43,403 nt of DNA from a virus, in IMG/VR virus record IMGVR_UViG_3300021440_000049, positions 1 to 43,403 of that record; one strand, 5' to 3'. A model generated the notes under the pieces. That model was not told where the DNA came from, did no database searches, and saw only the letters and a list, made by a program, of their open reading frames with translations. The position numbers and the translations under genes were made by a program. This document shows, piece after piece, positions 36,043-39,378 of this stretch. Position 1 is the first letter of the stretch; each line of letters opens with the position of its first letter.

Positions 36043-36251
36043 CCGCCGCCGAGGTGTGGCCGACGTTCGACGCGCACCGGGCGTGCCGTCGCTGCGATCA
36101 CGGGGTCGCTGGCGCGTGTCAGCGGGCCGAGGTGCAGGGCAGGGGCCAGCCGGTCGCTTTCAACGCAGCCAGGGCTCGCGGCGGGGCCTGCGGGCCCGAG
36201 GCCGACCTGCTGACGATCAAGGGTTTCGACTACTCATTGGAGCGTGGATGA
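36039..36251 (+). CDS. Small cysteine-containing protein
   Basis: This 70-residue protein has CRRCDHGVAGACQ and a later GACGP, four cysteines that could bind zinc. The N-terminal EVWPTFDAHRAC segment is helical. It is coupled by ATGA on both sides. A small zinc-binding accessory protein is the best guess. Confidence 0.55.
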   Translation: MTAAEVWPTFDAHRACRRCDHGVAGACQRAEVQGRGQPVAFNAARARGGACGPEADLLTIKGFDYSLERG

Positions 36252-36745
36252 TCTCACTAGACGAAGCGACGAAAGACTGGGCCGTTGACGAAGGTGGTTG
36301 GAAGATCGCGCCGGCCGGCCTCGCGTGGATTGCAGAAGGCGCGCGGGCCATCCTCGGCGACAGGGCCCGCATCGGCGACGGGGCCAGCATCGGCGACTGG
36401 GCCAGCATCGGCGACTGGGCCAGCATCGGCGACGGGGCCCGCATCGGCGACGAGGCCAGCATCGGCGACTGGGCCAGCATCGGCGACAGGGCCAGCATCG
36501 GCGACGAGGCCAGCATCGGCCCGAACTCGTCCGACGCCGTCGACCTCGGCTCGGCCGACGGATACCGCAAGTGCGTCGCGCAGGTTGACGGCGTTGCGTA
36601 CATCGGCGCCGGGTGCCGATGGTTCACGCTCGACGCCGCGCTAGCGCACTGGTCGGCCGCACCGGCAGGTACGCGAGACACGACGCTGTGCTTACTGCAG
36701 GCGGCGGTCGCTGTGGCGAAACTTCGCGGTTGGAGGCACGCATGA
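36248..36745 (+). CDS. Left-handed beta-helix protein with hexapeptide repeats
   Basis: The 165-residue protein has nine hexapeptides of the form xA(R/S)IGD at residues 39-92, the signature of a left-handed beta-helix: each repeat puts isoleucine on the inside. The C-terminal domain (YRKCVAQVDGVAYIGAGCRWFTLDAALAHW) is globular. The helix would have only about three turns. There are no acyltransferase motifs beyond the repeats. I recall similar phage proteins with the same IGAGCRWF ending and no known function. A trimer or a DNA-mimicking shape is possible but unproven. Confidence 0.7.
   Translation: MISLDEATKDWAVDEGGWKIAPAGLAWIAEGARAILGDRARIGDGASIGDWASIGDWASIGDGARIGDEASIGDWASIGDRASIGDEASIGPNSSDAVDLGSADGYRKCVAQVDGVAYIGAGCRWFTLDAALAHWSAAPAGTRDTTLCLLQAAVAVAKLRGWRHA
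36362..36523 (+). repeat. 18-bp tandem repeats encoding hexapeptides
   Basis: Nine in-frame 18-bp units (GCCAGCATCGGCGACTGG and variants) encode the hexapeptides. The repeats differ mainly at the first and third codons. The high DNA identity indicates recent expansion or recombination. Confidence 0.85.
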
Positions 36746-37056: not shown

Positions 37057-37064
37057 AACGCAAT
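37047..37064. promoter_or_regulatory. Palindrome over the cytosine methyltransferase start
   Basis: ATTGCGTTAAAACGCAAT is symmetrical in 16 of 18 bases and contains CGTTAAAACG at 37051-37060. Its right end includes the first bases of the methyltransferase ATG (37063). Binding here could block transcription or the start site, allowing direct control of the methyltransferase genes. Confidence 0.55.
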
Positions 37065-37962
37065 GGTCTACTACAATGAATTCGACCCGAAGCTGGCGCC
37101 GTGGCTCTACGAGTTGATGGACGCCGGGCTCATCGCCCCCGGCTACGTGGATACCCGCTCGATAGAGGACGTAGCCCCGGATGACCTGCGCGAGTTCACT
37201 CAATGCCATTTCTTCGCCGGTATCGGTGGGTGGCCCTACGCCTTGCGCCTCGCCGGCTGGCCCGACGATCGCCCCGTGTGGACCGGCTCGTGTCCGTGCC
37301 AACCTTTCAGCGCGGCAGGCAAAGGCGCAGGGTTTGCTGATGAGCGGCATCTTTGGCCCGCTTGGCACTGGCTCATCTCGCAGTGCCGCCCTGGCGTCAT
37401 CTTTGGCGAGCAAGTTGCAAGCAAGGACGGCCTCGCTTGGCTCGACCTTGTTCTCACTGACCTGGAAGTCGCGGGCTACGCCGCAGGGGCGGTCGATCTG
37501 TGCGCTGCGGGCGTCGGCGCCCCGCACATCCGACAGCGGCTGTGGATCGTGGCCGACACCGACGCGCCAGGACGCGGCGAGCAGCGGCTCAGCGGGCTAC
37601 TCGACGGCGAGCGGTCGCCACAGTGGCACGACGCTGACCGATGCGGCGCGATACGCGGGCTGGCCGACGCCGATGGCGGGCACGCTGGCGCAGAACGGCA
37701 ACAACGCGGACGAATTCCTGGCGGGGCGGGCGGACCAGACGCGCGGCAAGCCACTGAGCGAGCAGGCATTCGCGCTGGCCCCTGGTCAACCGTCGAGTGG
37801 GTCCAATGCCGCGACGGAAAAGCCCGGCCAGTTAAACCCGGCGTTCAGCCTTTGGCTGCAGGGCTATCCGGAAGAGTGGGCGTCTTGCGGGGCGCGGGCA
37901 ATGCAATCGTCCCGCAGGTTGCCGAACAAGTCATAAGGGCGTACCTTGAAAACATCAACTAA
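37063..37962 (+). CDS. dcm: DNA C5-cytosine methyltransferase
   Basis: This is a 299-residue protein. Motif I FFAGIGGW at 50-57, motif IV PCQPFS at 78-83 with catalytic Cys79, motif VI as EQV at 116-118 (instead of ENV), motif VIII QRLWIVAD at 158-165 and the late motif X GNAIVPQVAEQVIRAYL are present. The target-recognition region at about 170-250 is short. It opens VYYNEFDPKLAPWL, typical of phage members. Methylation would protect phage DNA from restriction. A second conserved protein is encoded out of frame inside it. Confidence 0.9.
   Translation: MVYYNEFDPKLAPWLYELMDAGLIAPGYVDTRSIEDVAPDDLREFTQCHFFAGIGGWPYALRLAGWPDDRPVWTGSCPCQPFSAAGKGAGFADERHLWPAWHWLISQCRPGVIFGEQVASKDGLAWLDLVLTDLEVAGYAAGAVDLCAAGVGAPHIRQRLWIVADTDAPGRGEQRLSGLLDGERSPQWHDADRCGAIRGLADADGGHAGAERQQRGRIPGGAGGPDARQATERAGIRAGPWSTVEWVQCRDGKARPVKPGVQPLAAGLSGRVGVLRGAGNAIVPQVAEQVIRAYLENIN
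37340..37936 (+). CDS. Conserved protein encoded out of frame inside the cytosine methyltransferase gene
   Basis: This 198-residue frame lies wholly within the methyltransferase gene in another frame. It starts GIFGPLGTGSSRSAAL and continues KLQARTASLGSTLFSLTWKSRATP, RSICALRASAPRTSDSG, two WPTP motifs (GSWPTPTRQDAA, GWPTPMAGTLAQNG) and GQLNPAFSLWLQGYPEEW. I recognise exactly this set in proteins encoded beside or within phage cytosine methyltransferase genes, so it is unlikely to be a chance frame. AGG precedes the ATG by 8 bases; the frame opens further upstream at 37181. Function unknown. Confidence 0.7.
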   Translation: MSGIFGPLGTGSSRSAALASSLASKLQARTASLGSTLFSLTWKSRATPQGRSICALRASAPRTSDSGCGSWPTPTRQDAASSGSAGYSTASGRHSGTTLTDAARYAGWPTPMAGTLAQNGNNADEFLAGRADQTRGKPLSEQAFALAPGQPSSGSNAATEKPGQLNPAFSLWLQGYPEEWASCGARAMQSSRRLPNKS

Positions 37963-38248
37963 AGAACGCGCCGCCGCGCTACTCGCCGCAGCCCTCGACC
38001 TGGCCCGCAAGCAGGGTTGGCACTCGTTGACGCACGAGTCAATCGCCAAGGCCGCCGACGTGTCGCCGTCGCTGGTCAAGGTGCGCCTCGGCACCATCGC
38101 CGCCCTGCGCCGCGCCGTGATGCGCGAGGCCGTCAGGCAGGGCGTCGTGCGCGTCGTTGCAGAAGGCCTGGTGGCGGGCGACCGGACGGCGCGGCGCGCC
38201 GACGCGGCGCTGCGCTCGGCGTGTGCCGAGTGGATGGTGCGCGCGTGA
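37946..38248 (+). CDS. TetR-like HTH protein without ligand domain
   Basis: This 100-residue protein starts with TTG; AAGGG lies 6 bases upstream, and it overlaps the end of the methyltransferase gene by 17 bases. The first 60 residues match the TetR DNA-binding domain (ALLAAALDLARKQGWHSLTHESIAKAADVSPSLVKVRLGTIAAL). The ligand-binding/dimerisation domain of full TetR proteins is missing. It sits between two methyltransferase genes, so controlling them is a plausible inference. Confidence 0.75.
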   Translation: MKTSTKERAAALLAAALDLARKQGWHSLTHESIAKAADVSPSLVKVRLGTIAALRRAVMREAVRQGVVRVVAEGLVAGDRTARRADAALRSACAEWMVRA

Positions 38249-39378
38249 CGGCCTATCGCGACTGGGGGCTGTTCGCCCTGCACCACGGCGATTGCTTGGA
38301 CGTGCTGCGCGCGATGCCCGAGGCGAGCGTCGACAGCGTCGTGACCGATCCGCCCTACGGCCTGGCGTTCATGGGCAAGCGGTGGGATTACGACGTGCCG
38401 GCCGCCGCGACGTGGGCGGAAGTGCTGCGCGTGCTCAAGCCGGGCGGCCACGTGTTGTCGTTCGGCGGCACGCGCACCTATCACCGCCTGGCGTGCGCGA
38501 TCGAGGACGGCGGGTTCGAGGTCCGCGATCAAATAGGCTGGGTGTTCGGCTCAGGCTTCCCGAAATCGCTGGACGTGTCGAAGGCGATCGACGCAGCGCT
38601 CGGGGCCGAACGCGCGCTGACGCGGCCGGCCTCCGACGCCGCTGCCGCATGGCAGGGCTGGGGCACCGCGCTCAAACCCGCATGGGAGCCGATCTGCGTG
38701 GCGCGCAAGCCGTTGATCGGCACCGTGGCGGCGAACGTGCTGGCGCACGGCACGGGGGCGCTGAACATCGACGGGTGCCGGGTGCCGACGACCGAGAGCA
38801 CCGTGAGGCCCAACGGCCCGATCGGCTATCACGGGGGTGGGTCGGGTGGGTCGGGCGGCAGTGACGTTGGCCGCTGGCCCGCAAACCTGATCCACGACGG
38901 CAGCGACGAAGTGCTCGCGGCGTTCCCGCAGGCGCCGGGGAAACTGGCCGACGCGAGCGACACCGCCGCGAGCGCCAAGACGGGCCGCGTGTACGGGCCA
39001 AGGGCGCGCACCGGCGAGCCCAGCGCCGGCAGCGACAACGAGGGCGCCGTCGGGTTCAAGATGAAGCCGGGTGCGCGCAGGCTCGACACCGGCAGTGCGG
39101 CGCGGTTCTTCTACTGCTCCAAGGCGAGCAAGTCCGATCGCGGCGCCGACAACACGCACCCGACCGTCAAACCTACCGACCTCATGCGCTACCTTTGCCG
39201 TCTCGTGACGCCTGCGGGCGGCCTGATCCTCGACCCGTTCATGGGCTCGGGCAGCACGGGCAAGGCGGCAGTGCTCGAGGGCTTCCGGTTCGTGGGGATC
39301 GAACGCGACGCCGCCTACCTCGACATCGCCGACCGCCGCATCGCCGTGGCGTACTTCGAGCGCATGGCCGCGGCATGA
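38245..39378 (+). CDS. DNA N4-cytosine/N6-adenine methyltransferase
   Basis: The 377-residue protein starts with GTG. Motif IV DPPY occurs at 35-38 (VVTDPPYGL) and the S-adenosylmethionine-binding motif at the C-terminus (LDPFMGSGSTGKAAV, about 329-343). With the catalytic motif first and the cofactor motif last, it is of the beta class. The region between them (about 100-320) includes the target-recognition domain with low-complexity GGGSGGSGGS. DPPY allows either N6-adenine or N4-cytosine methylation. It is coupled by GTGA upstream and ATGA downstream. Confidence 0.9.
   Translation: MTAYRDWGLFALHHGDCLDVLRAMPEASVDSVVTDPPYGLAFMGKRWDYDVPAAATWAEVLRVLKPGGHVLSFGGTRTYHRLACAIEDGGFEVRDQIGWVFGSGFPKSLDVSKAIDAALGAERALTRPASDAAAAWQGWGTALKPAWEPICVARKPLIGTVAANVLAHGTGALNIDGCRVPTTESTVRPNGPIGYHGGGSGGSGGSDVGRWPANLIHDGSDEVLAAFPQAPGKLADASDTAASAKTGRVYGPRARTGEPSAGSDNEGAVGFKMKPGARRLDTGSAARFFYCSKASKSDRGADNTHPTVKPTDLMRYLCRLVTPAGGLILDPFMGSGSTGKAAVLEGFRFVGIERDAAYLDIADRRIAVAYFERMAAA

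Follow-up and report, generated by a model that had tools for sequence, protein, structure and literature searches.

A fully nested +1-frame gene in a phage C5-cytosine methyltransferase gene as the probable target-recognition/motif IX subunit of a split enzyme

The closest described systems to the locus examined here are the two-polypeptide methyltransferases M.EcoHK31I and M.AquI. Work by Lee et al. in 1995 reportedly had the small EcoHK31I polypeptide read from another frame inside the large-subunit gene, and is said to have found that both polypeptides were needed in vitro. The large subunit of M.EcoHK31I carries motifs I–VIII and X and is described as containing the predicted recognition domain, with motif IX on the separate small polypeptide; in M.AquI, motifs I–VIII are on one chain and at least part of the recognition region together with motif IX on the other (PMC3404938). 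Searches of the open-access literature turned up only these precedents and no account of a nested phage pair, and a subscription paper may exist.

In the window, which is the whole 43,403 nt stretch of viral DNA that was analysed (IMG/VR record IMGVR_UViG_3300021440_000049), a C5-cytosine DNA methyltransferase gene (alpha) contains a second gene (beta) in its +1 frame. The locus very probably encodes one C5-cytosine methyltransferase as two polypeptides from the same DNA, a catalytic alpha and a recognition/motif IX beta that would come together as a single enzyme. Beta would most likely serve as the target-recognition/motif IX subunit in this split methyltransferase and be made by internal initiation. 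The features of the locus are as follows.

37063..37962, + strand: alpha gene, C5-cytosine DNA methyltransferase, 299 aa (ATG 37063; PF00145 E 5.8e-12; phrog_363 E 7e-80)
37165..37169, + strand: possible Shine-Dalgarno sequence GAGGA, 11 nt before the beta ATG at 37181, a spacing longer than ideal
37181..37936, + strand: beta gene, 251 aa, +1 frame, fully nested in alpha (ATG 37181; phrog_1008 E 4e-24)
37213..37230, + strand: alpha motif I (FAGIGG), invariant alignment columns
37294..37302, + strand: alpha motif IV, catalytic PCQ, invariant columns, aligned to the PCQ of M.HhaI
37376..37516, + strand: beta helix (aa 66-85) and beta-hairpin (aa 92-112, SLTWK..ALRAS), AF2 pLDDT about 65-87
37522..37539, + strand: alpha motif VIII (PHIRQR), conserved, aligned to M.HhaI
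37550..37573, + strand: beta first WPTPTxxD repeat, start of the putative recognition region; W124, T126 and P127 nearly invariant
37594..37767, + strand: alpha residues 178-235, predicted disordered, neutral linker over the DNA of the beta recognition region (pLDDT 32-40; omega)
37661..37672, + strand: beta second WPTP repeat; W161 nearly invariant
37835..37879, + strand: beta motif IX-like segment NPAFSLWLQGYPEEW (PSSM; in-frame counterpart in mycobacteriophage single-chain methyltransferases)
37897..37920, + strand: alpha motif X (GNAIVPQV), conserved; AF2 helices 271-298 confident

Homologues were gathered from viral contigs with beta as the query and, independently, with alpha as the query, and stops were counted in 77 non-redundant loci among the matches listed. 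Most of these loci (L018-L097) were found by the alpha protein and were therefore not picked for beta. The null model was synonymous codon permutation within alpha, which keeps the alpha protein and its codon usage fixed. Under this model the +1 frame was expected to be fully open in 4.5 of the 77 loci and was so in 64, with 15 stops observed and 254 expected. There was no depletion in the -1 frame (853 stops observed, 748 expected). Residual +1 stops were present in 13 of the 77 loci and, except in L005, beta ended ~50-90 nt before the end of alpha. When the set was enlarged with bacterial-genome and more viral loci, a +1-frame beta was found in all 289 alpha loci among the matches listed, and was nested in alpha in 283 of them.

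Over 28 independent sequence pairs, dNN/dNS was 0.46 (0.37-0.56) for beta, 0.90 (0.71-1.08) for beta's frame outside beta, and 1.68 for the -1 frame. Synonymous change per site in alpha was halved inside the overlap (0.039 versus 0.078 outside). Beta is a real gene, and selection acts at the protein level on it as well as on alpha. The first-pass annotation had proposed that this gene encodes two conserved proteins in overlapping frames, and the stop counts and the beta dNN/dNS bear this out; the signs that it had named as speaking against the proposal, a second frame regularly broken by stops and a lack of constraint on main-frame third positions, were looked for and not found. Both frames are present as described in the span that it gave, 37340-37936, but the nested gene starts earlier, at 37181 and not 37340. 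Similarly, long nested genes are unusual, as it had remarked, but this pair is not rare, recurring in hundreds of phage and prophage loci. In L106, from a Klebsiella aerogenes plasmid, and L178, from an Arsenophonus endosymbiont, both frames were broken in several places; these are decayed copies in which alpha and beta were lost together.

Alpha was found to carry motifs I, IV (PCQ), VI, VIII and X of the C5-cytosine methyltransferases (PF00145) on a Rossmann-type fold, with GEQV in place of ENV as motif VI. The motif IX and recognition domain that a single-chain PF00145 enzyme has in the same chain were absent from alpha and located in the +1 frame, an exception that also applies to the known two-polypeptide members. 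For structure prediction, annotated-record rows were left out of the alignment, and the AF2 model of alpha showed a methyltransferase fold with a confident core and confident motif X helices. Foldseek matched this model to M.HhaI, M.HaeIII and DNMT2, and profile searches likewise placed alpha there. Within alpha residues 1-80 (37063-37300), the sequence YYNEFDP..VDTRSIEDV resembles motifs II-III yet lies N-terminal to motif I (FAGIGG). Motif I and PCQ are separated by only 27 residues, whereas the separation is 64-72 in the phage enzymes of canonical order used for comparison. Alpha therefore seems to have a swapped motif order, II-III-I-IV, and the N-terminal segment was confidently folded by AF2. 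A profile of that segment gave no significant match to classical-order enzymes.

The peptide STLFSLTWKSRATP, both WPTP motifs and NPAFSLWLQGYPEEW are all encoded by beta, which is made up of an N-terminal helix and hairpin, a WPTP-repeat region that would serve in recognition, and the motif IX-like segment. Conservation in beta extends to the hairpin, which precedes the WPTP repeats and, together with the helix, is a possible alpha-binding element. Beta also matched phrog_31772 in the PHROG search, and both this family and phrog_1008 are labelled 'DNA methyltransferase' in PHROGs, whereas Pfam and NCBIfam searches with beta gave no match. The same label is common for beta, which has no catalytic motifs, in PHROGs and in many phage records, and is correct in spirit. 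The AF2 model of beta alone was of low confidence (pLDDT 58), though with the helix and hairpin confident and a short helix at the NPAFSLW segment fairly confident. A Foldseek search of the PDB with this weak model returned nothing significant, and a PDB search by the beta profile gave a chance match only.

Single-chain enzymes encoded in the same genomes have TPRECARLMGFPDTF as the classical motif IX, where beta has NPAHSRWLMGLPPEW (NPAFSLWLQGYPEEW in the window), in the same register with the Arg-Glu missing. A motif IX matrix (PSSM) built from 20 single-chain enzymes gave its highest score in the +1 frame for 134 of 143 alpha genes, with means of 3.3 bits in the +1 frame, -6.0 in-frame, -8.0 in the -1 frame and -5.1 in the permuted +1 frame. 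In classical single-chain enzymes motif IX was in-frame and not in +1, the reverse of the alphas. Profile-profile comparison of beta with ordinary bacterial C5-methyltransferases placed motif IX in register at E 0.07-0.12, which is not significant. Joining alpha motifs I-VIII, beta 119-236 and alpha motif X extended the Pfam match from a partial one (profile 66-160) to a near full-length one (66-321), with a modest gain from 46 to 53 bits; the joined sequence scored 53.3 bits versus 47.2 for a shuffled control, in which no near full-length match was obtained.

Selection on the two frames was also resolved along the overlap, with omega values obtained by simple site counting; these were bootstrapped over sequence pairs except in the per-segment case. 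Before beta, omega_beta was 0.91 and omega_alpha 0.13; the corresponding values were 0.80 and 0.22 over motifs I-VI, 0.63 and 0.23 over motifs VII-VIII (the beta hairpin), 0.39 and 0.95 from motif VIII towards X, and 0.31 and 0.31 over IX/X. An omega_alpha of 0.95 with an omega_beta of 0.39 at the site expected for the recognition domain indicates that alpha drifts there and beta does not. It is therefore unlikely that beta gives motif IX only, with the recognition domain in alpha and some other role, for example as a scaffold, for the WPTP region. The description of a predicted recognition domain in the large subunit of M.EcoHK31I (PMC3404938) would fit such an arrangement, but in alpha the stretch between VIII and X is effectively neutral and predicted to be disordered where beta is constrained, and single-chain relatives have a PTP-repeat region between motifs VIII and IX.

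Relatives in which the same parts are fused were found in Mycobacterium phages. WillSterrel gp71 and ShiLan gp70 are single chains with motifs I-VIII, PTP repeats, a NPAFPEWMMGWPTGW-like segment and then motif X in one frame, the motif IX-region segment of WillSterrel, between the PTP repeats and motif X, being LNPAFPEWMMGWPTGW. The beta segment in mycobacteriophage methyltransferases consists of WPTP repeats and an NP..W(L/M)MG motif, between motifs VIII and X. A profile of the beta recognition/IX region from the window's family matched WillSterrel 197-354 with E 6e-8, and with E 7e-14 when diverse nested betas were included; E. coli Dcm, which was in the search set, was absent among the matches listed. 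For searches of such small custom sets, E-values were rescaled to a set size of 100,000 sequences. The beta family phrog_1008 matched WillSterrel gp71 194-390 (E 1.3e-57), and the alpha family phrog_363 also matched this protein. In Gordonia phage Upyo (gp54/gp53), motifs I-VIII are in one gene and the PTP repeats, IX and X in an overlapping +1-frame gene. On these sequence matches, the beta segment and the recognition/motif IX part of single-chain enzymes are homologous. In two single-chain mycobacteriophage enzymes (L350, 1309-2484, and L351, 1309-2478), the +1 frame retains, up to a stop, sequence resembling the N-terminal part of beta (..YDPDTRSWKMWPD..ETWPKTGYMSGG..LLPTP), which may be left over from an ancestor with overlapping genes or may give a small product of its own.

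The assignment of beta as the recognition/IX subunit thus draws on constraint in beta between motifs VIII and X, where alpha is neutral and without IX, and on the fused mycobacteriophage and separate Upyo forms. That the second protein might be a methyltransferase partner was a guess of the first-pass annotation, and it is supported by the segment omegas, the motif IX in +1 and the in-frame fusions. It is improbable that beta is instead an independent protein (anti-restriction, a toxin or other) whose overlap with the methyltransferase gene is incidental. Beta does have its own start codons, and constraint is weak and complexity low over its first ~60 residues, but no beta was found without alpha in the 289 loci among the matches listed, the beta segment is fused in-frame into mycobacteriophage methyltransferases, and what beta supplies is exactly what alpha lacks. 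A free-standing anti-defence protein or toxin was rejected on the first two of these grounds.

A +1-frame TAG stop at 37172-37174 lies upstream of the beta ATG at 37181, thus beta must start at 37181 or later. Ahead of the conserved hairpin, the open +1 frame contained an ATG in 148 of 152 loci (75 expected), and in 100 of the 152 a +1-frame ATG had an SD-like site upstream (10.4 expected). Beta has its own conserved internal start codons, and the excess of internal ATGs and SD-like sites indicates internal initiation, not frameshifting. There is correspondingly little chance of programmed +1 ribosomal frameshifting near motif VIII to give a fused chain (alpha I-VIII, recognition and IX) besides alpha. 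The known single-frame versions indicate that a fused chain would be functional in principle. However, with a shift near motif VIII the +1 frame upstream would not have to be open, yet stops are depleted throughout that part; nor would a start codon be required, yet ATGs with SD-like sites are ten times commoner than expected; and beta is conserved in the hairpin that precedes the WPTP repeats. Frameshifting was disfavoured on the stop depletion and the internal starts. That the +1 frame is open merely through high GC and codon bias, with the conserved peptides as by-products of alpha, was rejected as having a negligible probability, since, although GC is 65-72% over most of the window and one high-GC locus taken singly departs only modestly from expectation (P = 0.007 for a +1 frame open this long in the window and 0.05 for the open frame in L017, by synonymous permutation with alpha fixed), 15 stops were seen where permutation keeping the alpha codon usage expects 254, phage genes of 45-49% GC (from Firmicutes, Vibrio and E. 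coli phages) retain betas of 172-236 aa, and the dNN/dNS of 0.46 is specific to beta.

In the split enzyme favoured here, alpha (frame 1) would contribute motifs I-VIII, as the core for catalysis and AdoMet binding, together with the motif X helix; the WPTP repeats, as the target-recognition region, and motif IX would come from beta (+1 frame, internal ATG). The two are predicted to assemble into one site-specific methylating enzyme, its assembly, activity and target sequence all being part of the prediction. The methylated target is probably phage DNA, which would be protected from host restriction, a role suggested by the family and by a neighbouring N4/N6 DNA methyltransferase gene (38245-39378; PF01555 E 7.6e-28). 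This gene follows one for a TetR-type HTH protein (37946-38248) directly after the alpha/beta pair, and the phage thus has two DNA methyltransferases of different types close together. Two genes upstream of the pair, the gene at 36248-36745 encodes tandem GDxASIGDW/GDxARIGD hexapeptide repeats (PF00132) of the left-handed beta-helix type. The suggestion made earlier that the nested protein blocks a host defence found no support beyond the general role of phage methyltransferases.

The two-polypeptide principle was already known, and what is new is the breadth and age of the arrangement and the evidence for a recognition domain in the nested frame. It seems rather likely that nested alpha/beta C5-methyltransferases are among the largest and oldest same-strand fully nested gene families in prokaryotic viruses, occurring in phages and prophages of Proteobacteria and Firmicutes with overlapping or fused actinophage forms, and that a widespread phage enzyme has a recognition domain that escaped notice through being encoded in the other frame. 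If so, many phage cytosine methyltransferases in databases are half annotated, recoding a synthetic 'methyltransferase' ORF would destroy the recognition subunit and leave no activity, and predictions of methylation specificity from the middle region of alpha rest on a passenger linker. As an overlapping-gene system it is unusually tractable, with hundreds of natural pairs, single-frame and side-by-side relatives and a methylation read-out, and could be used to test how two enzyme halves came to share DNA.

Both overlapping frames have already been annotated as genes in some phages, as ORF29 ('C-specific methylase') and ORF28 ('Mte8-like protein') in Kagunavirus K1ind2 and as gp56 and gp57, each called 'DNA cytosine methyltransferase', in Paenibacillus phage Jacopo; the relation between the two products is not stated in these records. 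WillSterrel gp71 and ShiLan gp70 have the catalytic part, the PTP repeats and the P..EWMMGWP segment in common with the window pair, but in one continuous frame and without a full nested beta, whereas the window uses two frames. Upyo gp54/gp53 has the M.AquI layout. The small subunit of M.AquI also carries motif X, whereas in the window motif X is in the alpha frame, with beta fully nested.

EcoHK31I differs from the window pair in being part of a restriction-modification system; in the window, the five neighbouring genes that were checked included no recognisable restriction gene. The published description of EcoHK31I has the recognition domain predicted in the large subunit, whereas the selection pattern in the window places it in beta, and alpha in the window seems to have a rearranged N-terminal order. 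However, M.EcoHK31I, together with M.EaeI, and the window are alike in having a large subunit with motifs I-VIII and X and without IX, and a second polypeptide with motif IX or, in the window, an IX-like segment that is weak against the classical motif IX when taken alone. As is reported for EcoHK31I, beta lies in another frame inside alpha.
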